Assembly (NCBI GenBank): GCA_910575815.1
Contig: CAJTFN010000005.1
Span: 80,023 to 144,022 of the forward strand
From: Oscillospiraceae bacterium
GTDB taxonomy: Bacteria > Bacillota > Clostridia > Oscillospirales > Oscillospiraceae
Length of the DNA stretch: 64,000 nt
Direction: 5' to 3'
How positions within the stretch are numbered: the stretch's first letter is position 1; each line of letters starts with the position of its first letter. Below the pieces are notes generated by a model. The model was not told where the DNA came from and did not search any database. It saw only the letters and a list, made by a program, of their open reading frames with translations. Below, in pieces: positions 15,743 through 63,110 of this stretch. The translations under genes and the position numbers were made by a program.

Positions 15743-15759
15743 AACGAGCATTTTGTTTT

Positions 15760-15821
15760 GGGACGCTAACAGCAATTTCAAAACAATGAACATTTAATTC
15801 ATCCAGTTGAAAATGCGTCCC
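15760..15821 (+). ncRNA. CAGCAA hairpin module E1
   Basis: Outer stem GGGACGC/GCGTCCC (7 bp) encloses TAACAGCAA, an inner stem TTTCAA/TTGAAA and a terminal stem ATGAA/TTCAT. It lies just upstream of the serine tRNA leader hairpin. Confidence 0.65.
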
Positions 15822-15845
15822 GTGGTGGCGGAAATCGCCACATAT

Positions 15846-15936
15846 GGAGGGGTAATCCTAATTGGTAAGGAAGCATCCTGCTAAGGTGCCAGTAACCCGC
15901 AAGGGCGTGTGGGTTCAAGTCCCACCCTCTCCGCCA
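15846..15936 (+). tRNA. tRNA-Ser(GCU)
   Basis: Complete class II cloverleaf: acceptor GGAGGGG/CCTCTCC, anticodon stem GCATC/GGTGC around CTGCTAA, long variable arm with a CCC/GGG stem, T arm GTGGG/CCCAC, G73 and encoded CCA. It has no insertion. A small hairpin (TGGCG/CGCCA) plus CATAT directly precedes it. Confidence 0.93.
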
Positions 15937-16025: not shown

Positions 16026-16139
16026 GGGAGCGTCGGGTGGCAGGCCATACCGTGTAACGGGCGGCGGACACGCACAGCAATTTACTATACAAGAAGACTG
16101 CAAATCTTTTCCTCTACGGTTCGAGTCCGTAGGCTCCCC
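16026..16139 (+). tRNA. tRNA-Cys(GCA) with a ~40-nt insertion
   Basis: The 3' half is clear: anticodon stem GAAGA/TCTTT around CTGCAAA, T arm TACGG/CCGTA, acceptor GGCTCCC. The 5' acceptor GGGAGCG (16026) pairs over 6 bp, with a G-G at the seventh. D arm GGTG/TACC ends at 16051. About 40 nt (16053-16092) separate base 26 from base 27; this segment has CGTGT/ACACG and then CACAGCAA. The 3' end is C73 without CCA, so this copy may be imperfect. Confidence 0.7.
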
Positions 16140-16180
16140 TAAAAGCCGCTATGATAATTCTTAGAAAGGAGATTCGTGCC

Positions 16181-16210
16181 ATGAGTAGAGCACGTGACCA
16201 GACCATCTGA
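16181..16210 (+). other. Mini-ORF MSRARDQTI with strong ribosome site
   Basis: Nine codons after AAAGGAG at 7-nt spacing, inside the non-coding tRNA array. A similar mini-ORF lies 154 nt downstream. Whether it is translated is unknown. Confidence 0.4.
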
Positions 16211-16244
16211 GTTATCTTTGGAAAATGTAATGTAATCGGCTGCT

Positions 16245-16276
16245 GAAACGTATGGGGCGGTGCCCCAACAGGTTTC
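16245..16276 (+). ncRNA. Stable hairpin in the Cys-Pro spacer
   Basis: GAAAC/GTTTC closes a loop that contains GGGGC/GCCCC; a downstream ACCGCCC (16285-16291) can pair alternatively with GGGCGGT, forming a possible switch or pseudoknot. The 280-nt stretch 16140-16421 has no long ORF. Confidence 0.45.
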
Positions 16277-16334
16277 AAAATGTGAACCGCCCACAAAAGT
16301 GCGGAAGATTGGGATGCAGTTAAGGAGGCTCTGC

Positions 16335-16361
16335 ATGAACAAAGCACGAGACAAGCCCTAA
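16335..16361 (+). other. Mini-ORF MNKARDKP with strong ribosome site
   Basis: Eight codons after AAGGAGG at 6-nt spacing. Shares the pattern M-(S/N)-(R/K)-A-R-D-(Q/K)-(T/P) with the mini-ORF at 16181; 18 of the first 24 bases agree. Confidence 0.4.
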
Positions 16362-16421
16362 GTGATGTCAATAACATCATACTTACCGCTTCCGGCACAA
16401 CATTGAAAAAGTTATCAACTG

Positions 16422-16467
16422 GGACGCTAACAGCAATTCATTCTAAAATTTTGGAAAAAATGCGTCC
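16422..16467 (+). ncRNA. CAGCAA hairpin module E2
   Basis: Outer stem GGACGC/GCGTCC encloses TAACAGCAATT and a smaller inner fold. Stem and motif are nearly identical to E1, but the interior differs, as expected for a conserved RNA element rather than a recent DNA duplication. Confidence 0.65.
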
Positions 16468-16494
16468 ACTAATATCATGAATACGGCGGTTCCT

Positions 16495-16553
16495 GGGAGG
16501 TTCCCGCATTCATATGTGTAATGAAAAAACACAGGCAGCAATGAAAACCTCCC
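16495..16553 (+). ncRNA. Leader hairpin of tRNA-Pro with CAGCAA
   Basis: GGGAGGTT pairs with AACCTCCC; the interior has TGTG/CACA followed by GGCAGCAATG. AATAT separates it from the tRNA start, matching the CATAT, AATAT and AACTAT spacers at other tRNAs. Confidence 0.55.
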
Positions 16554-16558
16554 AATAT

Positions 16559-16674
16559 GCAGAGGTAGCTCAGTCGGTAGAGCAATAGTATAGAAAATGT
16601 GGAGCGCACAGCCTCACTAACAGCAATGTATAATGGGGAACTATGTGTCGTAGGTTCGAGTCCTACCCTCTGCA
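16559..16674 (+). tRNA. tRNA-Pro(GGG) with a 43-nt insertion
   Basis: Acceptor GCAGAGG/CCTCTGC, D arm GCTC/GAGC, T arm GTAGG/CCTAC and A73 are all perfect. The anticodon stem ATAGT (16585-16589) pairs with ACTAT (16640-16644), but 50 nt lie between instead of 7. Removing 43 nt (16590-16632, or shifted by up to two bases because AT is repeated) leaves the loop ATGGGGA: U33, anticodon GGG, G37 as in normal proline tRNAs. The insert has GTGGAG/CTCAC followed by TAACAGCAATG. Confidence 0.85.
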
Positions 16675-16902
16675 CAAGCGTACTTTTGTACGCAAATCCT
16701 TTCTTTGCGGTTCGGATGCAGAATGCGATTGCTCTGGTACAGAGAACGCCGTCTAAAGGTGATCAGCAACGGACGTAAAACAAGTGTAGTGACCGTGCAA
16801 ATCGGAACGTCTGGGAGTTGTACCACTCCCACCTGTGAGAGCCAGGACAGCAAGAGATAGGTGAGCAAAGAGAAAGCTCATAAGGCAAATCCTCGTGCCT
16901 TA

Positions 16903-16978
16903 GCAGATGTGGTGTAGCTGGATAGCACGCTGGCCCATGTGGGGCCGGAAGGATTGGGTTCGAGTCCCATTCGCTGTG
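16903..16978 (+). tRNA. Degenerate tRNA-like sequence (His, GUG?)
   Basis: D arm GTGT/GCAC with a normal GG loop, T loop TTCGAGT with 4 paired bases, and a 5-nt variable region are clear. The acceptor pairs at only 5 of 7 positions (two G-U). The anticodon arm can form 7 bp (CTGGCCC/GGGCCGG) with only ATGTG left as loop; reading U33-GTG-G37 gives histidine. It is directly preceded by TAAGGCA/TGCCTTA. It may be a decayed tRNA or a tRNA-like domain of another RNA. The spacer before it, 16675-16902, has several hairpins (for example GGGAGT/ACTCCC) and no ORF. Confidence 0.45.
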
Positions 16979-17179
16979 ACTAAAAAGAAGGGCGTCATGG
17001 AATAGCTGACCATGCGCATTGGGAGTAGCTGCCCGATGTACAAAAACGACGGATGAACCCTTATGTAAAACGGTGTAGCATAGACGAAAAGATTGTAAAC
17101 GTCATGTTTATTGAAACGGGTGCGCAACCGTGGAGAACACTGTTTGTATGGGAGAGTGGCCCATACCCTATCACCTCAA

Positions 17180-17294
17180 GCCAGGGTAGCTCAGTGGATA
17201 GAGCGCGTATCAATGCGTATCGTATGAAACGCTCACAGCAATGATTGAAGGAATTTTAATCCCGTGGTCGTGGGTTCGATTCCCACCCCTGGCA
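17180..17294 (+). tRNA. tRNA-Lys(UUU) with a 42-nt insertion
   Basis: Acceptor GCCAGGG/CCCTGGC, D arm GCTC/GAGC, T arm GTGGG/CCCAC and A73 are perfect. The 3' strand of the anticodon stem is TCCCG; its partner CGGGA exists only if CG (17206-17207) is joined to GGA (17250-17252), removing 17208-17249. The resulting loop ATTTTAA is the canonical Lys loop. The insert has TCAAT/ATTGA, GCGT/ACGC and CACAGCAATG. The junction lies between bases 28 and 29, unlike any standard bacterial intron site. Confidence 0.85.
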
Positions 17295-17508
17295 CAAGAC
17301 TCCTTTGTTTTCCGGTGTTCTTTCGAGTCGTCAAGAAAAAAACCGGCGTAGTTGCGGATGATAAAACGCAAGCGAAATCCATTCTCGCTAATGAATGGAT
17401 AAGGGCAGGGCTTTGGGATCGCTTACGTCTGCTCTGAAAATAAGCGCCAGATAATCAGCCCAAATATCTTGAACTGGGCTGTGGCAGCTTGGAAAGACAA
17501 GCAACTAT

Positions 17509-17632
17509 GCGGCAGTGGTGAAGTGGTAACACAGCAGCCCTATAAAAAATGTGAAGCGGAAGTTTCACTAACAGCAAGGTAAAAAGGAAGCCAAGCTGCC
17601 ATTCGTAGGTTCGATTCCTACCTGCCGCTCCA
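17509..17632 (+). tRNA. tRNA-Gly(GCC) with a ~49-nt insertion
   Basis: Acceptor GCGGCAG/CTGCCGC, U73 and encoded CCA; anticodon stem GCAGC (17534-17538) pairs with GCTGC (17595-17599), T arm GTAGG/CCTAC. About 56 nt lie between the two stem strands. The anticodon GCC at 17590-17592 is followed by AA. The insert (about 17540-17589) has GTGAA/TTCAC and then TAACAGCAA. The exact junction is unclear: joining after CCT gives an 8-nt loop with U before the anticodon, while a 7-nt loop lacks U33. Leader hairpin GCTTG/CAAGC precedes it. Confidence 0.8.
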
Positions 17633-17639
17633 ATTCTCT

Positions 17640-17676
17640 GAACACATACAGCAATAGCAAGATGACAACTGTGTTC
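17640..17676 (+). ncRNA. CAGCAA hairpin module E3 upstream of the Ro60 gene
   Basis: Perfect 7-bp stem GAACACA/TGTGTTC enclosing TACAGCAATAG. It lies 8 nt after tRNA-Gly and 35 nt before the TROVE start codon, so it could be a leader element or a ligand of that protein. Confidence 0.6.
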
Positions 17677-17710: not shown

Positions 17711-19270
17711 ATGAGCAACTTTATGGAAAGTGTCAAGGACACGATGCTGGACGGCGCAAACAATATCTCTGTTACCGAGAATGGGGCGGTCGGCTATCGC
17801 ACCACTGGTCGATCTTTGCTGGATCTCAACTTTGCCGTGGCGTCTCTCCGTAACGCCAGCGTTAAGGAGATCGCGGATCGCTTCACCCAGGCGTTTTTCG
17901 AGGATAAGGTGACAGCGATGAAGTGGCTGTTCTTTGCCCGCGATGTGCGTGGCGGGCTGGGTGAGCGCCGACTGTTTCGTGCGGCTATGGTGCCGATGGC
18001 AAAGAAGTTTCCGGAGTACGTTACACCGGTGCTGTCGTTGGTGCCTGAGTATGGGCGTTGGGACGATCTCTGGTGTCTGCTGGATACGCCGGTGGGCGAT
18101 AAGGTGATTGAGCTGGTGGCAAGGCAGCTGCATGACGATCTGCATAACAACGTCGAGCAGAAGCCGATCTCTCTGCTGGCAAAGTGGATGCCGCGCCGCA
18201 AGTCCTCTTCTAAGGAGTCTCGTCATTACGCCCGTATTCTGTGCGAAGGGTTGAATATGACCGAGCGTACCTATCGGCATACTCTTTCTGGCCTGTCCCG
18301 TTACCTGGTTGTTGTGGAGCAGCAGATGTCCAAGAACGATTGGGACGGGATTGATTACCAGCGAGTCCCCTCCCGTGCCAACCTGATTTACAACAAGGCT
18401 TTCCTCCGCCACGATGAGGAGCGCCGCCGTGAGTTCCTTAGTCGGGTGGAGAACGGCGAGGCCAAGATCAACGCTGGTACGCTGTTCCCGCACGATATTG
18501 TCAACAAGTATCGTCAGAGCCACGGCGTGGACGCCACACTGGAGGCATTGTGGCAGAATTTGCCTGACACGGTACAGGGTTGTGGAAACACGATGGTGGT
18601 TATGGACGATAGCGGAAGTATGGAGTGGGTGATGCTCCCTGGGAGTTCCGCTCGTCCGTTGGAGGTGGCAAACGCCTTGGCGATCTATTTTGCCGAGCGA
18701 TCTTCTGGTCAATTCAAGGATCAGTATATGTCCTTCTCCGACAGACCGCAGCTCCTCGACATCTCCAGTGGCAAGAACCTCTATGAGCGGCTTCAAATTG
18801 TCCATGCTTGCCATGCTGGAGCCAATACCAACGTGGAGGCAGTCTTTGATCTCATCCTGGAAACAGCGGTTTCTAAGCATATGAATCAGAATGACTTGCC
18901 TGCCAACATTCTCATCATTTCCGATATGGAGTTTGATGCTTGTGCCAGCTGCGGTGCTCCTTCGAGAGATCGGTGGAGCTACAACACGCAGAGGCCAAAC
19001 GCCCGCCTTTTTGACGAGATCAATAGGCGGTATCAGCAGGCAGGTTACAAAATGCCCAGATTGGTGTTCTGGAATGTTGCCAGCCGCTCTGGGACGATTC
19101 CCGTTAGGGAGAACGACATGGGCGTGGCGCTGGTCAGCGGTTTCTCCGTCAACATCGCTCAGATGGTGATGAGTGGCAAGCTCGATCCCTATGAGTGTCT
19201 GTTGGAAACGCTGAACACTGAGCGCTACCAGCCTATCGAGGACGCACTGCGTCCTGTTGTCAACGACTAA
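17711..19270 (+). CDS. rsr: TROVE-domain protein, bacterial Ro60 homologue
   Basis: A 519-aa Ro60/Rsr-type ring protein. The N-terminal HEAT-like TROVE domain (about residues 15-285) includes FFARDVRGGLGERRLFR. The C-terminal von Willebrand A domain has the metal site DDSGS at residues 299-303. Bacterial Ro proteins bind Y RNAs and structured or misfolded RNAs and can direct exonucleases. Directly downstream of the tRNA array and upstream of RNA ligase, nucleotidyltransferase and kinase-phosphatase genes, which supports a role in RNA maturation or repair. AGGAGG precedes the ATG. The symbol follows the bacterial name. Confidence 0.92.
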   Translation: MSNFMESVKDTMLDGANNISVTENGAVGYRTTGRSLLDLNFAVASLRNASVKEIADRFTQAFFEDKVTAMKWLFFARDVRGGLGERRLFRAAMVPMAKKFPEYVTPVLSLVPEYGRWDDLWCLLDTPVGDKVIELVARQLHDDLHNNVEQKPISLLAKWMPRRKSSSKESRHYARILCEGLNMTERTYRHTLSGLSRYLVVVEQQMSKNDWDGIDYQRVPSRANLIYNKAFLRHDEERRREFLSRVENGEAKINAGTLFPHDIVNKYRQSHGVDATLEALWQNLPDTVQGCGNTMVVMDDSGSMEWVMLPGSSARPLEVANALAIYFAERSSGQFKDQYMSFSDRPQLLDISSGKNLYERLQIVHACHAGANTNVEAVFDLILETAVSKHMNQNDLPANILIISDMEFDACASCGAPSRDRWSYNTQRPNARLFDEINRRYQQAGYKMPRLVFWNVASRSGTIPVRENDMGVALVSGFSVNIAQMVMSGKLDPYECLLETLNTERYQPIEDALRPVVND

Positions 19271-19340: not shown

Positions 19341-19362
19341 CTTATACGAAGGAGTGATATCA

Positions 19363-20508
19363 TTGGTCTATCTCGACCATGCGGCATCGACCGCACCTTT
19401 TCCCGAAGTCTTGGATACCATGCTTCCATGGTTTCAGACGTGTCATGTTGGAAACCCCAGCAGTATCCATTCCCAGGGTATCAACGCCCGCCACGCTATC
19501 GAAAAGGCACGAGAACAGGTAGCGCTAATGATCGGTGCAGACCCTTCGGAGATATTTTTTACCTCCGGCGGAACTGAGGCGAACAACGCCTGGTTCCGAT
19601 GTCTGACCAAACACGTTGTCCTTACGGACGAGATTGAGCATCATTCGATTTCTGAACCGTTGAAAAATGCGTGTGTATGCCCGCTCCCCGTTGTTATGAA
19701 ATACGCAAGGGTTTGGTCGGACGGCTCGGTAGACCTGGATGATTTGGAGCGGCTTATCATTGAAAACAAGAAAGAGCTGGGTGCCGTTTCTGTCATGTGG
19801 GTCAACAACGAACTTGGAACGGTGAATCCTATCAAAGAAATCGGAACACTTTGTAAAAAGTATGACGTTCCTTTCCATACAGACGCAGTAGCGGCGGCGG
19901 GTCACGTTCCAATCGACGTTCACGCCTATAATGTGGACTTCCTATCTCTCTCCGGTCATAAGTTCGGAGCACCCCAGGGAATTGGAGTGCTGTATATCTC
20001 CAATCGAATCAGAAAGGAACCGTGGGTTTATGGTGGAGGTCAGGAGCGTGGATTGCGAGGCGGCACCGAGAATGTACCAGGAATCGTGGGGATTGGCAAA
20101 GCGGCAGAGATAGCGACCAAGCGCCTGCCAAGGCAGATGGCACAGTGGGCACATTTGCGGGATGTGTTTTTGAATGAGCTTAATGTCGAAATGGATGGAG
20201 AGTTTCATATCAACGGCGATACCGACCGGCGTTCCTCCGCTATCATCAGCTTGACACTGCCGGGAGTCAACAGCGAATCTTTACTTCTGTTGCTGGATCA
20301 GCAAGACATCTACCTTTCTGCTGGTTCCGCTTGCAGCGCATCCGACGCCACAACTTCACACGTTCTGCGTGGAATTGGATTATCTGAGGAAAGCGCTGCC
20401 TGTACCGTCCGTATTTCAATGGGGTTTGATACTACGGAAGATGAAATGCGTCAAGCTGCTCAGGGTGTTGCGAGTGTGGCGCATAGGCTGAAAGCTATGT
20501 ATTCCTAA
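19363..20508 (+). CDS. Cysteine desulfurase (NifS/IscS family)
   Basis: A 381-aa PLP enzyme that takes sulfur from cysteine. N-terminal VYLDHAAST, PLP lysine in SGHKFGAPQGIG (Lys 200) and active-site Cys in SAGSACSAS (about residue 324) are all present, so it should be active. The TTG start at 19363 is preferred, with GAAGGAG 8 nt upstream. Sulfur could serve tRNA thiolation, Fe-S assembly (NrdG and radical SAM enzymes are encoded nearby) or DNA phosphorothioation; no dndB/D/E-like genes are seen. Lies inside the RNA-repair cluster. Confidence 0.9.
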   Translation: MVYLDHAASTAPFPEVLDTMLPWFQTCHVGNPSSIHSQGINARHAIEKAREQVALMIGADPSEIFFTSGGTEANNAWFRCLTKHVVLTDEIEHHSISEPLKNACVCPLPVVMKYARVWSDGSVDLDDLERLIIENKKELGAVSVMWVNNELGTVNPIKEIGTLCKKYDVPFHTDAVAAAGHVPIDVHAYNVDFLSLSGHKFGAPQGIGVLYISNRIRKEPWVYGGGQERGLRGGTENVPGIVGIGKAAEIATKRLPRQMAQWAHLRDVFLNELNVEMDGEFHINGDTDRRSSAIISLTLPGVNSESLLLLLDQQDIYLSAGSACSASDATTSHVLRGIGLSEESAACTVRISMGFDTTEDEMRQAAQGVASVAHRLKAMYS

Positions 20509-20545
20509 CCCCCTATATTTATTCTTTTTTGTTTTTTCTATTAAC

Positions 20546-20559
20546 AACGAATAAAATCA
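20546..20559 (+). repeat. AACRAAYAAAATCA repeat, copy 5
   Basis: AACGAATAAAATCA, 14 nt before the RNA ligase start codon. Confidence 0.75.
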
Positions 20560-20573
20560 AAGGAGAGATGCAA

Positions 20574-22013
20574 ATGTATTGTGCGTATGTCACCAAAATC
20601 CGCAATCTGCGTAAGCACACCAACGCTGATCGTCTGCTCTGTGGCGAGTGCTTTGGGAACACGGTAATTGTGGATCTTGGAACCGAACCTGACCAGCTGG
20701 GGGTCTACTTCCCCGTAGACGGCAAGCTCGGTGTAGAGTTCGCTCAGAAGAACGACCTTCTGCGGCGAAAAGATGAGAACGGCAACCCCGCCGGCGGCTA
20801 CCTCGATCCAGAGAAGCGCAACATTAAGGCGCTGAAGCTCCGAGGAGAAAAAAGTGATGGCTTGTTTCTGCCCATCTCCTGCATGGAGGGATTTATTGAT
20901 ACCTCTTTGCTGAAAGATGGAGACACAATTTCTGTCGTGAACGGTATCACCATCTGTGAGAAGTACATTCCTAAGCGCAACCGTAGTGGTGGAAGTCCTG
21001 GCGGCGGAAGTCGTGTCCGCAAGAAGTCCGATCCGATTTCTCCGCTCTTCATGGAACACGCCGATACAGAGCAGCTTGCCTACAATCTGTCTGCTTTCCG
21101 TGCCGGCGACCTGGTAGAGATCACGCTGAAAATGCACGGCACCAGTCAGCGTACTGGCTATCTTCCTGTGCTTCAAGGCTACAAGTATAAGAACGGTTTG
21201 CAAAAGCGGCTGTTTGAGAGCGATAAAACTCCGAACTGGCTACGCTCTATGATTGAGCGGACGCCCATCTATGATTGGGGTTATGTTACCGGAACCCGCC
21301 GTGTAGTGTTGGATAGCTTTGACGGAGGTTTCTATGGTAGCAATGCTTTCCGTGAACAGCACGCCAAGATTTTTGAAGGGAAGCTCCACAAAGGCGAGGA
21401 GGTCTACTATGAGGTGGTGGGTTTCACGGATGATGGCACGCCCATCATGTCTCCTAGCAATAACGCCAAGATTGGTGACAAGGAGTTTTCCAAACAGTAC
21501 GGCAAAACCACTTTCTTTAGCTATGGCTGCGATCCTACCGGCAAGAAAACGACAGCAGACGGTTCTGGAGTATCTGCCGAGCCTGTTCCCAAATCCGACA
21601 TCTATGTCTACCGGATGACCATGACCAACGAGGATGGTGATGTGGTGGAGTACCCGCCCGACTTCATGCGTTATCGCTGTGAACAGATGGGTGTCAAGTG
21701 TGTGCCGCTGTTCTGGCGTTGCTTTATCCCGGATATGGTTCAGCTTCCCGACGCTGTGGGTTCTCCCCAAGCTGTGGACGCTGGCGAATACATCAAAGCT
21801 ATCGCAGAGAGGTATTATGACGGCCCCGACCCTGTTGGCAAAACCCATATTCGAGAGGGCGTTGTGTGTCGGATTGTCAATCGTCCCAAGTTTGCGGCCT
21901 ACAAGCATAAGAACTTCTACTTCAAGGCACTGGAGGGGCTTATTAAAGATACCGCCGCTGCGCCGGATATGGAGGAAGCCCAGGAGGTGGAGGTTATGGA
22001 AGAAGAGGGATGA
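20574..22013 (+). CDS. RNA ligase, DRB0094/Rnl5-like
   Basis: A 479-aa ATP-dependent ligase. The nucleotidyl-acceptor motif I is KMHGTSQR with Lys about 186; motif III-like YDWGYVTGTRRVVLD and EEVYYEVVGF (motif IIIa/IV region) follow, and a later KHKNFYFKA segment may be motif V. The N-terminal 170 residues look like the OB-type module of the Deinococcus DraRnl (Rnl5) family, which seals 3'-OH/5'-phosphate RNA ends. ATG at 20574 is chosen for spacing from AAAGGAG. Forms an operon with RlaP-like and kinase-phosphatase genes. Confidence 0.85.
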   Translation: MYCAYVTKIRNLRKHTNADRLLCGECFGNTVIVDLGTEPDQLGVYFPVDGKLGVEFAQKNDLLRRKDENGNPAGGYLDPEKRNIKALKLRGEKSDGLFLPISCMEGFIDTSLLKDGDTISVVNGITICEKYIPKRNRSGGSPGGGSRVRKKSDPISPLFMEHADTEQLAYNLSAFRAGDLVEITLKMHGTSQRTGYLPVLQGYKYKNGLQKRLFESDKTPNWLRSMIERTPIYDWGYVTGTRRVVLDSFDGGFYGSNAFREQHAKIFEGKLHKGEEVYYEVVGFTDDGTPIMSPSNNAKIGDKEFSKQYGKTTFFSYGCDPTGKKTTADGSGVSAEPVPKSDIYVYRMTMTNEDGDVVEYPPDFMRYRCEQMGVKCVPLFWRCFIPDMVQLPDAVGSPQAVDAGEYIKAIAERYYDGPDPVGKTHIREGVVCRIVNRPKFAAYKHKNFYFKALEGLIKDTAAAPDMEEAQEVEVMEEEG

Positions 22014-22321
22014 ATAAGTCTACAATCCTCAACTTTATCCAGAACTTCAAAGGCTCTGAGGAGGTTTTTCTAAATGGCTGCTGTTACTGGTTTGCCTTTA
22101 TTCTTCAAGAGAGATTTGGCGGAAACATGATGTATGAGCCAGTGATTAACCACTTCGTTCAGGAAATCGGTGGCCGGCTTTACGATGTCTCCGGTGATGT
22201 GACCGATCAGTACACCACAGAGTATTTGATGTTCTGGGCTGATATGGAGGGGTATGACCCCTCCCTCTATCAGCGGATTTTACGAGACTGTGTGAGAAAG
22301 AAGGAGTGTAGCGATGAATAA
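22010..22321 (+). CDS. Hypothetical protein in the RNA-repair operon
   Basis: A 103-aa protein overlapping the ligase gene by four bases and the next gene by eight. It has Cys (NGCCYWFAFIL), His (NHFVQEIGG) and Asp (LYDVSGDV) in the order seen in papain-like folds, so a cysteine hydrolase fold is possible. No activity can be claimed. Confidence 0.6.
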   Translation: MNKSTILNFIQNFKGSEEVFLNGCCYWFAFILQERFGGNMMYEPVINHFVQEIGGRLYDVSGDVTDQYTTEYLMFWADMEGYDPSLYQRILRDCVRKKECSDE

Positions 22322-23117
22322 GGAGCGCATTATGGCTCGGATGCAAGAGCATTTGGCTACCGTTCAAGAACACTTCGGAGATGCGTGGGTTGGCCTGTTC
22401 CTGCAAGGTTCACAAAATTACAAACTGGATTATGAGAGTAGCGATATTGATACCAAGGCAATCGTACTCCCCAGCTTCTCAGATTTCGTTCTTACCCACA
22501 AGCCCGTCAGCACCACCCATGTTATGGAAAACGATGAGCACGTGGACTTTAAGGATATTCGGCTCATGTTTGAGTGTATTCGCAAACAAAACGTCAATTT
22601 CATTGAGATTCTGTTCACGCCCTACTGCATTATCAACCCGCTCTACACCGATCTGTTTCAATCGGTGTTGGACGCCAGAGAAGATATTGCCCGCTATAAC
22701 AACTATGCTGGTATGAGTTGTCTGCTGGGTATGGCGTTGGAAAAGCAACACGCTATGGAGCATCCTTATCCCGCCGCTCTTGCCAAGATTGAGCAATTTG
22801 GGTACGACCCTAAGCAGCTTCATCATGCCTTGCGGATGCGGGAATTTATGACCCGCTATATGGCCGGCGAAAATTATTTTGATTGTCTGGTTAGCAAACA
22901 GTCGGATTACCTTGTAGAGGTAAAAAGAGGGTGTCACACCTTAGAGGAGGCGCGGCAGCTTATGCAGGAGGCAGTTGATTCCATGATCGCCGATAAAAAG
23001 CAATATATGGATACAGTGCCTCTCGCAATCAATCAGCACGCCGATCAGGTGCTACAGACAGCGACGGTGGAGATTTTGAAGCGGCGGTTTCTGATGGAAT
23101 TACAGGAGGGTAAGTAA
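22314..23117 (+). CDS. RlaP-like nucleotidyltransferase
   Basis: A 267-aa member of the DNA polymerase beta-type nucleotidyltransferase superfamily (COG3541/RlaP-like): GSQNYKLDYESSDIDT near residues 32-47 gives the GS...DxD active site, and the remainder is helical (FIEILFTPY). RlaP proteins are known as neighbours of RNA ligases and were predicted to act on RNA ends. Its position between the ligase and the kinase-phosphatase supports this. Confidence 0.8.
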   Translation: MNKERIMARMQEHLATVQEHFGDAWVGLFLQGSQNYKLDYESSDIDTKAIVLPSFSDFVLTHKPVSTTHVMENDEHVDFKDIRLMFECIRKQNVNFIEILFTPYCIINPLYTDLFQSVLDAREDIARYNNYAGMSCLLGMALEKQHAMEHPYPAALAKIEQFGYDPKQLHHALRMREFMTRYMAGENYFDCLVSKQSDYLVEVKRGCHTLEEARQLMQEAVDSMIADKKQYMDTVPLAINQHADQVLQTATVEILKRRFLMELQEGK

Positions 23118-23118
23118 A

Positions 23119-24039
23119 ATGCAGTGCTTCTATATGATGGTTGGTCTTCCTGGAAGTGGAAAGTCTTGGTATGCCGAGAACAAGTTGCCTGACGCCGTGA
23201 TCCATTCCAGTGATACCATTCGTGAAGAGCTACTGAGTGACATCTCCGACCAAAACCACCAGGAGCTGGTATTCCAGACGCTCCATGACCGTGTGCTCTC
23301 CGATTTGCGTGCTGGTAAAGATGTGGTCTACGACGCCACGAATGTCAGTTACAAGCGCCGAATGGGATTTCTGCATCGTGTCACCGCTGTTAATCCCCAG
23401 ATCAAGAAAGTGTGCGTTTTCATGGCGACGCCGTATATCCTCTGTGTAGAGCGCAACGCCAACCGTGAACGTAGTGTTCCAGAGAATGTGATCGACCGAA
23501 TGTACCGGGGTTTTGATATCCCTATGGAAGCTGAAGGCTGGGACGAAATCTGGGTTGAGGGTGTGGAACCGTTTATCGGCGGTATCAGCCTTCTGCTCTC
23601 CCGCCTTGCAGCTCTGGAGCACGATAATCCCCATCATGAGTTTACTGTAGGGCAACATATGCTAACGGCCTATGAGTATTTCGACAAACAGTATCCCCAG
23701 TGGGTGAATGATATCTCTTTGGGCCGGGCGGTAGCGATTCACGATATTGGCAAGGAGTATACGAAAGTTTTCTGTAATGCCAAAGGTGAACCTACAGATA
23801 TTGCTCATTTTTATCAACATGAGCGTGTCGGTGCTTATGAGAGCTTTGCCCACACTACCGATTTGACTCTGCACGAAAGGTTGAAAGTAGCACTTTTGAT
23901 TCGCTGGCATATGGCACCTTTCGCAGTAGAAAAGTCAGATAACCCGAACAAGACGGAGAGAAAGTTCAAAGGCTTGCTCGGTGAGGATATCTGGAATCAG
24001 GTTATGGTCTTGAATGACTGTGACCGTCATGCACATTAA
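23119..24039 (+). CDS. Polynucleotide kinase with HD phosphatase domain
   Basis: A 306-aa bifunctional end-healing enzyme. Residues 1-150: P-loop kinase with GLPGSGKS (9-16), SDTIREE and DATNVSYKRR, as in polynucleotide 5'-kinases. Residues 170-300: HD phosphohydrolase with QHMLTAYE, AIHDIGKE (His 208, Asp 209) and LLIRWHM. HD-Pnk enzymes convert 2',3'-cyclic or 3'-phosphate and 5'-OH ends to ligatable ends, and the ligase three genes upstream would then seal. The domain order here is kinase then HD. Confidence 0.85.
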   Translation: MQCFYMMVGLPGSGKSWYAENKLPDAVIHSSDTIREELLSDISDQNHQELVFQTLHDRVLSDLRAGKDVVYDATNVSYKRRMGFLHRVTAVNPQIKKVCVFMATPYILCVERNANRERSVPENVIDRMYRGFDIPMEAEGWDEIWVEGVEPFIGGISLLLSRLAALEHDNPHHEFTVGQHMLTAYEYFDKQYPQWVNDISLGRAVAIHDIGKEYTKVFCNAKGEPTDIAHFYQHERVGAYESFAHTTDLTLHERLKVALLIRWHMAPFAVEKSDNPNKTERKFKGLLGEDIWNQVMVLNDCDRHAH

Positions 24040-61757: not shown

Positions 61758-61763
61758 TTGCGC

Positions 61764-61792
61764 TTGAGATTGGATACTCGGTGTGGTATAAT
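61764..61792 (+). promoter_or_regulatory. Integrase promoter
   Basis: TTGAGA, 17 nt, TATAAT; the start point leaves a 40-nt leader with AAAGGAG before the integrase ATG. Confidence 0.75.
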
Positions 61793-61838
61793 GCAAGTAC
61801 CACATCGAGTTTCTTCTTCAGGCAGAAAGGAGTTTGCA

Positions 61839-63110
61839 ATGGCCTCGAAAAGAAGAGACTCAAAAGGCCGGCTTCTCAAAGTCGGTGAATCCCAGCGATC
61901 CGATGGGATGTATATGTACCGATATAACGATGCAGGAGGGGTGAGACGGACTATTTACAGCTGGCGGCTGGTAGATACTGATAAGTTGCCAGTAGGCAAA
62001 AAGGCTGGTGCGCCTTTACGCGATCTGGAAAAGCAGTTGACTCGTGATACCGATGACGGTATTGAAAGTTTTGTAGCCAGTAAGAAAACTCTGGACGACT
62101 TCTTTCGGAAGTACATGGCAATGAAGAAAGAGCTGAAGCCTACTACCCGCTCTGGCTATATCCAAGTGTACAATAACTACATCAAGGACGAGCTGGGAAG
62201 TCGAAGTATCAGCTCTATCAAGTACAGTGATGTCAAGCAGTTCTATCTCTCCCTGTTCTATGAGAAAGGATTTAAGCCCAATACCGTTCATGCTGTCAAT
62301 ACCGTCCTCCATCCTATCTTCACATTGGCTGTACGTGACGGTTACATCCGAGCAAATCCCGCCTATCAGGTATATGCCGAGTTGAAAAAGCAGAACGGCT
62401 GGGGACAGGATAAGCGTCACGCTCTGACCGAAGTTCAGCAACAGATGTTCGTTGACTTCATTCGTAGCTCTCCGAAGTATGCTGGTTTCCTCAACCTGTT
62501 TACTGTATTCCTGGGTACTGGCTGTCGTGTGGGTGAGGTTATTGGCCTGCGCTGGGACGACTGTGACTTTGAAGAAAACCTTATCTCGATCAACCACAAC
62601 ATGGCTTTTTGTAGGCCTGAGAATGAAGAGAGGATGAGGTTCCTCGTGTCTACACCCAAGACCGAAGCTGGTACAAGGGTAATTCCCATGCTCCGTGAAG
62701 TCAAATCTGCTCTGCTAAATGAGCGGCTTCGCCAGATGGCAGAGGGCTTTACTCGAAATGAAGTAGACGGCTACACTGGCTTTATCTTCCAAACGAAGAA
62801 AGGTAATCTCTACACGAGTACATCTATCAACCAGATCATCAAGCACATCATCCGTGACTGCAATGCTGAGGAAACTGCTGCCGCTAAAAAGCAGCGGCGG
62901 GAGCCGATCTTGCTCCCGCACTTCTCCGTCCATAATTTGAGGCACACCTTCTGCACCCGCTTCTGTGAGAACGAAACCAACTTGAAAATCATCCAGGAAA
63001 TCATGGGGCACGCCAATATTTCTACCACCATGGATATCTATAATGAAGCCACGATGGAGAAGAAAAAGGCCAGCTTTGGGAACCTGGAGGGGAAGATTAA
63101 GATTGGCTGA
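61839..63110 (+). CDS. int: Tn916-type tyrosine recombinase (integrase)
   Basis: A 423-aa integrase: N-terminal arm-binding domain (ASKRRDSKGRLLKVGESQRS), SAM-like core-binding domain, catalytic domain with Arg in GTGCRVGEVIGLRW, HNLRHTFCTRF (HxxR) and the Tyr in HANISTTMDIY. It integrates and, with Xis, excises the element. ATG at 61839 has AAAGGAG upstream; a longer frame starts inside the promoter. Adjacent repeats to its right mark a probable attachment end. Confidence 0.95.
   Translation: MASKRRDSKGRLLKVGESQRSDGMYMYRYNDAGGVRRTIYSWRLVDTDKLPVGKKAGAPLRDLEKQLTRDTDDGIESFVASKKTLDDFFRKYMAMKKELKPTTRSGYIQVYNNYIKDELGSRSISSIKYSDVKQFYLSLFYEKGFKPNTVHAVNTVLHPIFTLAVRDGYIRANPAYQVYAELKKQNGWGQDKRHALTEVQQQMFVDFIRSSPKYAGFLNLFTVFLGTGCRVGEVIGLRWDDCDFEENLISINHNMAFCRPENEERMRFLVSTPKTEAGTRVIPMLREVKSALLNERLRQMAEGFTRNEVDGYTGFIFQTKKGNLYTSTSINQIIKHIIRDCNAEETAAAKKQRREPILLPHFSVHNLRHTFCTRFCENETNLKIIQEIMGHANISTTMDIYNEATMEKKKASFGNLEGKIKIG

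Follow-up and report, generated by a model that had tools for sequence, protein, structure and literature searches.

Why should four tRNA-like genes lying close together on one bacterial contig each carry an extra segment in the anticodon arm? The genes, which resemble those for tRNA-Cys, tRNA-Pro, tRNA-Lys and tRNA-Gly, lie in a stretch of 64,000 nucleotides (nt) of an Oscillospiraceae bacterium assembly (the window) that comprises bases 80023-144022 of contig C5 (258,964 bases; genome 4.56 Mb). An earlier note on this DNA had proposed that the segments could be an undescribed class of small tRNA introns or processing inserts. Our analysis points to another answer, to which we give a probability of roughly 0.6: the inserts are not introns but the Ro60-docking stem of Y-RNA-like RNAs that are built on a tRNA scaffold and perhaps offer their anticodon loop as bait. 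Underlying this reading is a well supported result of sequence comparison, a conserved and widespread RNA module that goes together with phage genes encoding predicted homologues of Ro60.

Inserts in four tRNA-like genes

Inserts of 42–49 nt are indeed present in the anticodon arms of all four genes, which lie on the forward strand as follows: Cys(GCA) at 16026..16138 (insert ~16052-16093, 42 nt), Pro(GGG) at 16559..16674 (~16592-16634, 43 nt), Lys(UUU) at 17180..17294 (17208-17249, 42 nt) and Gly(GCC) at 17509..17629 (~17541-17589, 49 nt), the bounds for Cys, Pro and Gly being approximate. The Rfam tRNA model recognizes the Pro, Gly and Lys genes at 56.5, 51.1 and 48.5 bits, respectively, all above its gathering score, and its alignments leave 49–55 nt unaligned, in each case in the anticodon arm. 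The Cys gene gives no Rfam match at E ≤ 1 and was identified by script and from the sequence itself; it has six of seven acceptor pairs and a T arm. ARAGORN detects only one tRNA gene in the window, the ordinary, insert-free tRNA-Ser(GCU) gene at 15846..15936 (+ strand), which Rfam reports as well. Each insert was described previously as a hairpin followed by one of two sequences, and this proved correct: the hairpin is followed by (C/A)ACAGCAA, which occupies 16072-16080 in Cys (where the stem is a short GTGT/ACAC), 16618-16626 in Pro, 17233-17241 in Lys (hairpin 17215-17232) and 17569-17577 in Gly (stem 17551-17568). Group I and group II introns can interrupt tRNA genes, but they are far larger than these inserts, as had already been pointed out, and the window gives no Rfam match to such introns; the insert itself matches no Rfam family in scans of the window and of six loci bearing the module described below.

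The claim that removal of the insert restores the anticodon arm holds for some of the genes. The joined arm is canonical for Lys, at a junction that is identical (by script) in the near-identical locus L347. It is canonical for Pro at a hand-placed junction, 33|34, which lies two bases from the 16589|16633 suggested in the earlier note and disagrees with the script call in L347. It is plausible for Cys, and it fails for Gly, for which none of the junctions tried yields a 7-nt loop with U33, a result that speaks against splicing.

One RNA module in three settings

The inserts share one RNA module, a hairpin followed by NNACAGCAA. Its consensus has an A-rich strand that ends in AAY and is followed by GNRUCYWG, and an opposite strand WNGANNY that is followed by UN-ACAGCAA; it was derived from 53 insert-type and 81 circularly permuted cases that were selected to have five or more stem base pairs and a well-formed anticodon arm after joining. 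The hairpin is 18 nt long in 34 of the 53 insert-type cases, and the stem covaries, with at least four pair types at every position among 82 distinct 7-bp stems. When candidates were taken without stem selection, 126 of 137 permuted and 77 of 128 insert-type ones had a stem of at least 6 bp, versus 16% and 6% when the partners were shuffled. The helix between the module and the junctions (P1) shows no consistent conservation, and the acceptor stem of module tRNAs shows no lengthening.

Contigs of IMG/VR and GTDB were scanned both for variants of ACAGCAA that precede a T loop and for a pattern of stand-alone copies. The resulting survey comprises 573 loci among the matches listed, nearly all of them fetched by the motif and many of them short, and its counts are lower bounds. 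The module occurs alone, as an anticodon-arm insert, or as the outer stem of a circularly permuted tRNA, in which the 3′ half of the tRNA comes first, then a short linker and then the 5′ half, both halves being enclosed by the module stem. In the gathered loci, ACAGCAA together with full tRNA arms gave at least 301 matches (111 insert-type and 190 circularly permuted), versus 0–2 for each of six scrambled 7-mers, a control that is generous to ACAGCAA because most of the loci were fetched by it. Strong modules of all kinds number at least 667 in the 573 loci versus 7–18 for three scrambled motifs. Stand-alone copies are common among the listed loci. A search of phage and metagenome sets for the same insert, as the earlier note had suggested, thus finds it again in many phage contigs, and this recurrence argues that the inserts are not random decay. 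The sister tRNAs without inserts that were also to be sought did not appear: when 172 joined sequences were set against the loci's 2628 ordinary tRNAs, no clear insert-free twin emerged (14 matches of at least 68 nt, two of them gap-free; the best 93% with 3 gaps).

The window holds the insert and stand-alone forms, and the permuted forms are known from other loci. Its two stand-alone copies, both on the forward strand, are at 15760..15821 (GGGACGC-TAACAGCAA-inner hairpin-AAAAT-GCGTCCC; module score 20.5), where the stretch 15755-15825 folds at −17.7 kcal/mol, and at 16422..16467 (GGACGC-TAACAGCAA-...-AAAAAAT-GCGTCC; score 16.6). They and the Gly insert (15.2) reach a module score of 14.5. A literature search, with subscription papers and preprints outside its reach, found no description of the module, and a search on the name OrbRNA gave no relevant match.

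Linkage to genes for Ro60-like proteins

Beyond the Gly gene, at 17711..19270 (+ strand), lies a gene for a 519-residue protein with DUF2828 and DUF7788 domains (Pfam) that matches phrog_850, an RNA-binding protein. Its predicted structure (pLDDT 74) consists of a TROVE ring and a von Willebrand factor A (vWA) domain and finds its best matches in a TROVE domain, Deinococcus Rsr, the Ro60 of Thermus phage phiLo and human Ro60, and on the strength of this fold the protein is a predicted Ro60 homologue. A profile search of PDB sequences with DUF2828 listed no Ro60 chains, and the Pfam TROVE family PF05731 was matched in none of 40 records.

The module and DUF2828 occur together far beyond the window. 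Of the 573 listed loci, 126 have both, 167 the module only, 14 DUF2828 only and 266 neither (p = 9e-29); in other words, a strong module is present in 126 of the 140 loci that encode DUF2828, and DUF2828 is encoded in 14 of the 280 loci that lack a strong module. The nearest module copy is on the strand of the DUF2828 gene in 123 of the 126. When records were searched whole, DUF2828 was found in 32 of 40 with tRNA-linked modules and in 6 of 28 with no such module in the gathered stretch; four of those six genes have module candidates nearby (one of them marginal) and two have none. Homologues of DUF2828 occur in 681 of 50,697 phage records, and members of the family lie ~50–550 bp from modules in Mycobacterium phage Lolly9 (where the gene is annotated as RNA-binding, and as Ro-like in sister records), Felixounavirus GEP101, Listeria phage LP-124 and Campylobacter phage CP30A. 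Because the module accompanies the Ro60-like gene in 126 fetched virus or genome fragments, the inserts are likely docking sites for that protein rather than introns.

The insert and permuted forms would share a single fold, circularly permuted, in which the docking stem leaves the anticodon stem of a tRNA body. The Ro60-like protein is predicted to bind the module, the ribonucleoprotein might act with a nearby ligase, kinase and nucleotidyltransferase (below) as an RNA-repair platform, and the kept anticodon loop could be a bait or decoy for host anticodon nucleases. If so, phage Ro60-like proteins would have a widespread RNA partner whose anticodon loops are retained and which often has an RNA ligase gene nearby; the question could be tested in phages of laboratory hosts, and Ro60 would be connected with the arms race over tRNA cleavage.

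Two other observations concern this protein family. In Vibrio phage KVP40 (L601 ~19710-19760) a module-like hairpin with a score of 14.1 overlaps the start codon of a DUF2828-family gene, hinting at autoregulation, and protein P0054, a DUF2828 homologue, is recorded as also containing a phage integrase domain.

Anticodon loops and tRNA bodies

In module tRNAs the anticodon is uncoupled from the rest of the molecule. Body and anticodon agree in 8 of 123 module tRNAs versus 145 of 200 ordinary tRNAs, and the body isotype of the joined products matches the anticodon at chance level, a statement that applies to the whole set and not to the four window genes singly. A Ser anticodon is combined with a short-arm body in 14/123 module tRNAs versus 1/2078 ordinary ones, and identical bodies can carry different anticodons (His GUG versus Pro GGG in L095 and L328). 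The discriminator base agrees in 57% and 45%, versus 90% in ordinary tRNAs, and CCA is seldom encoded. A role of module tRNAs in filling codon gaps was rejected, as they repeat ordinary anticodons of their locus in 34 of 76 cases (27 expected). The anticodon loop is well formed in most of them, and taken together these properties suggest that the loop is displayed rather than decoding cognately; from such display we infer that it perhaps serves as bait. Anticodons with A34 other than ACG are found in 11/123 module tRNAs of other loci and in 22/1199 ordinary tRNAs.

Comparison with known systems

Permuted tRNA genes and bulge-helix-bulge (BHB) introns are known from algae and archaea, and they resemble the module genes either in the order of the halves (3′ before 5′, connected by a short linker) or in a small insertion within the anticodon arm; they differ in that the module has a conserved ACAGCAA loop, an uncoupled anticodon and stand-alone copies.

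The bacterial Y RNA YrlA, which works with Rsr/Ro60, is similar as well. Two reports (PMC8394870, PMC7790460) describe it as an outer stem with a tRNA-like domain encoded beside the Ro60 gene and, in Salmonella, also beside RNA-repair genes. As in the module RNAs, its outer stem is formed from the RNA ends and joined to a tRNA-like domain, and its arms have a permuted order in the Rfam alignment. The permuted module forms of other loci likewise join D, T and acceptor arms to a basal stem, and the module, too, is encoded next to a Ro60 homologue (homology by predicted fold). Module RNAs differ from YrlA in that they mostly keep an anticodon arm and have an unpermuted insert form, and in their partner, DUF2828, which the Pfam TROVE model does not match. 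The Rfam YrlA gathering score (69 bits) was not reached, the best score being 37.7 bits, and the window has no YrlA match; for this reason, and because binding is predicted, we regard the module RNA as working like YrlA and do not file it as a member. A TROVE protein has been noted with RNA repair in a small subset of jumbo phages (Iyer et al. 2021, PMC7824862), and the accessible part of that paper describes the cellular TROVE protein as a repair platform with a tRNA-like partner and identifies no phage RNA; the module is a candidate for that RNA. In a 2026 mycobacteriophage screen (PMC13148394) the genes reported as toxic include those for a Ro-like protein, an RNA ligase and a polynucleotide kinase, and the term Y RNA is absent from its main text.

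RNA-repair genes

Within 5 kb of the Ro60-like gene the window encodes, all on the forward strand, an RNA ligase at 20529..22013 (phrog_968, E 8e-64; PF09414 and DRB0094-type ligase matches both below cut-off), a nucleotidyltransferase at 22314..23117 (phrog_388, E 4e-15; no Pfam match) and a polynucleotide kinase-like protein at 23119..24039 (profile matches; a weak HD-domain match). RNA ligase PF09414 occurs in 20 of 36 module records versus 6 of 28 controls, and of the 22 records that have both a ligase and DUF2828, a hand count that includes the window puts the two no more than 5 kb apart in 10. In Listeria phage LP-124, genes for RtcB and an RNA ligase are annotated in the neighbourhood of DUF2828 and the tRNA cluster; RtcB was rejected as a general partner, being present in 5 of 36 module records only. 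A NifS/IscS-like cysteine desulfurase gene (19354-20508) lies between the Ro60-like gene and the RNA ligase of the window.

Alternative explanations

The inserts and permuted genes could instead be small introns and permuted tRNA genes that are cut at both junctions and have their exons or ends joined to give mature tRNAs, the machinery being the Ro60-like protein together with an RNA ligase of the phage or its host; this is the main rival reading, and we consider it clearly less likely than docking. A canonical joined anticodon arm is possible for 175 of the 301 matches, a score that is not independent evidence because the candidates were chosen for a good joined arm, and ARAGORN calls a tRNA in 172/172 unique joined versus 1/172 unjoined sequences, a test that cannot pinpoint junctions because most shifted joins pass it too. 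The junction falls after tRNA position 28 or 29 (28|29 or 29|30) in 106 of 142 best-scored cases, in both topologies, and exon 1 ends in C[G/U] in 82/106, versus 17% (positions 27–28) and 32% (positions 28–29) of 1151 ordinary tRNAs of the same loci, which favours either a processed site or a structural rule of a three-way junction. The ligases near DUF2828, including the RtcB and RNA ligase of LP-124, would also fit. A more specific version, in which the Ro60-like protein recognizes the ACAGCAA module, the anticodon stem is cut at C[G/U]|[U/A] and a ligase joins the halves, so that intron-bearing and permuted genes are matured and the tRNAs stay hidden from anticodon nucleases until spliced, is likewise less likely than docking. 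Splicing sits poorly with the uncoupled anticodons, the rarity of encoded CCA, the repetition of ordinary anticodons, the stand-alone copies without tRNA exons and the lack of a canonical joined loop in Gly. The proposal that the inserts are introns is unsupported so far, as the module also occurs by itself and around permuted tRNAs, goes with a Ro60-like gene and is found in bodies most of which mismatch their anticodons. It is quite improbable that the module is a small self-cleaving or self-splicing ribozyme with the internal loop AAY/NNACAGCAA as its catalytic core in open and closed forms: small nucleolytic ribozymes do have compact conserved loops and open and closed topologies, and the module has such a loop, a covarying stem and both topologies, but the presumed junctions lie ~5–20 nt away at a distance that varies between genes, the close association with a single protein family points to a partner that is a protein, and no ribozyme is among the Rfam matches in the window and the module-bearing loci scanned. 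Decay of tRNA genes broken by unrelated insertions would account for the imperfect arms of Cys and Gly, for a degenerate tRNA-like unit at 16903-16978 and for permuted units of Lolly9 and Felix-type phages with poor anticodon loops (by eye), but the recurrence of a single conserved module, whose stem covaries, across hundreds of contigs largely contradicts it, and we give it hardly any credence.

Several results weigh against the reading of the inserts as docking stems with a displayed loop. The stem and loop sequences of the module are other than those of the Rfam YrlA stem. In the window, the Cys, Pro and Lys inserts score below 14.5, having the ACAGCAA loop with imperfect or short stems, and two minus-strand matches, probably due to chance, pass that score. 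DUF2828 is in the gathered stretch of 61 of 144 loci with a tRNA-linked module, which indicates that its tightest linkage is with module copies in general, and it was not found in 8 of the 40 module-bearing records, some of them fragments. The excess of ligases in module records also fits cut-and-join splicing, and the C[G/U]|[U/A] preference at the 5′ junction has no obvious reason if nothing is cut. Discriminator agreement is above that of shuffles (P = 0.004 and 0.009), so that some identity survives. Finally, by eye, relatives of the window retain the anticodons UUU for Lys and GCC for Gly, with UGG as the Pro anticodon where the window has GGG, and the window genes may therefore still be under tRNA-like selection.

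Genomic setting and other observations

Contig C5 encodes a phage-type DNA polymerase, a primase-helicase and NrdD, and because of these phage-type genes it looks like a large phage; no overlap was found between its first and last 3 kb, the sole test of its ends that was made. Positions 15.7–17.7 kb of the window contain the ordinary tRNA-Ser gene, the four insert-bearing genes, the two stand-alone hairpins and the degenerate tRNA-like unit, which scores 25.6 bits with Rfam (under the cut-off) and has imperfect acceptor and T stems. Just 5′ of the Ro60-like gene, at 17640-17676, is a hairpin, GAACACA-TACAGCAA...TGTGTTC, that is possibly a weaker module copy. A second cluster on C5 (C5:50640-55041, or L011 10640-15041; minus strand) has 19 ordinary tRNAs and three further stand-alone modules; ARAGORN did not report a transfer-messenger RNA (tmRNA) there, and a tmRNA-like sequence can be seen by eye. 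In Vibrio phage KVP40 (L601 29302-31214), three tRNAs of 113–124 nt that are annotated as pseudogenes have, by eye, an anticodon-arm hairpin with the variant loop CUGCA/CCAGCA, possibly the same kind of insert. Some phage "pseudo-tRNA" annotations may be module RNAs. At 61758-63110 the window also encodes a Tn916-type integrase, in this phage-like contig.
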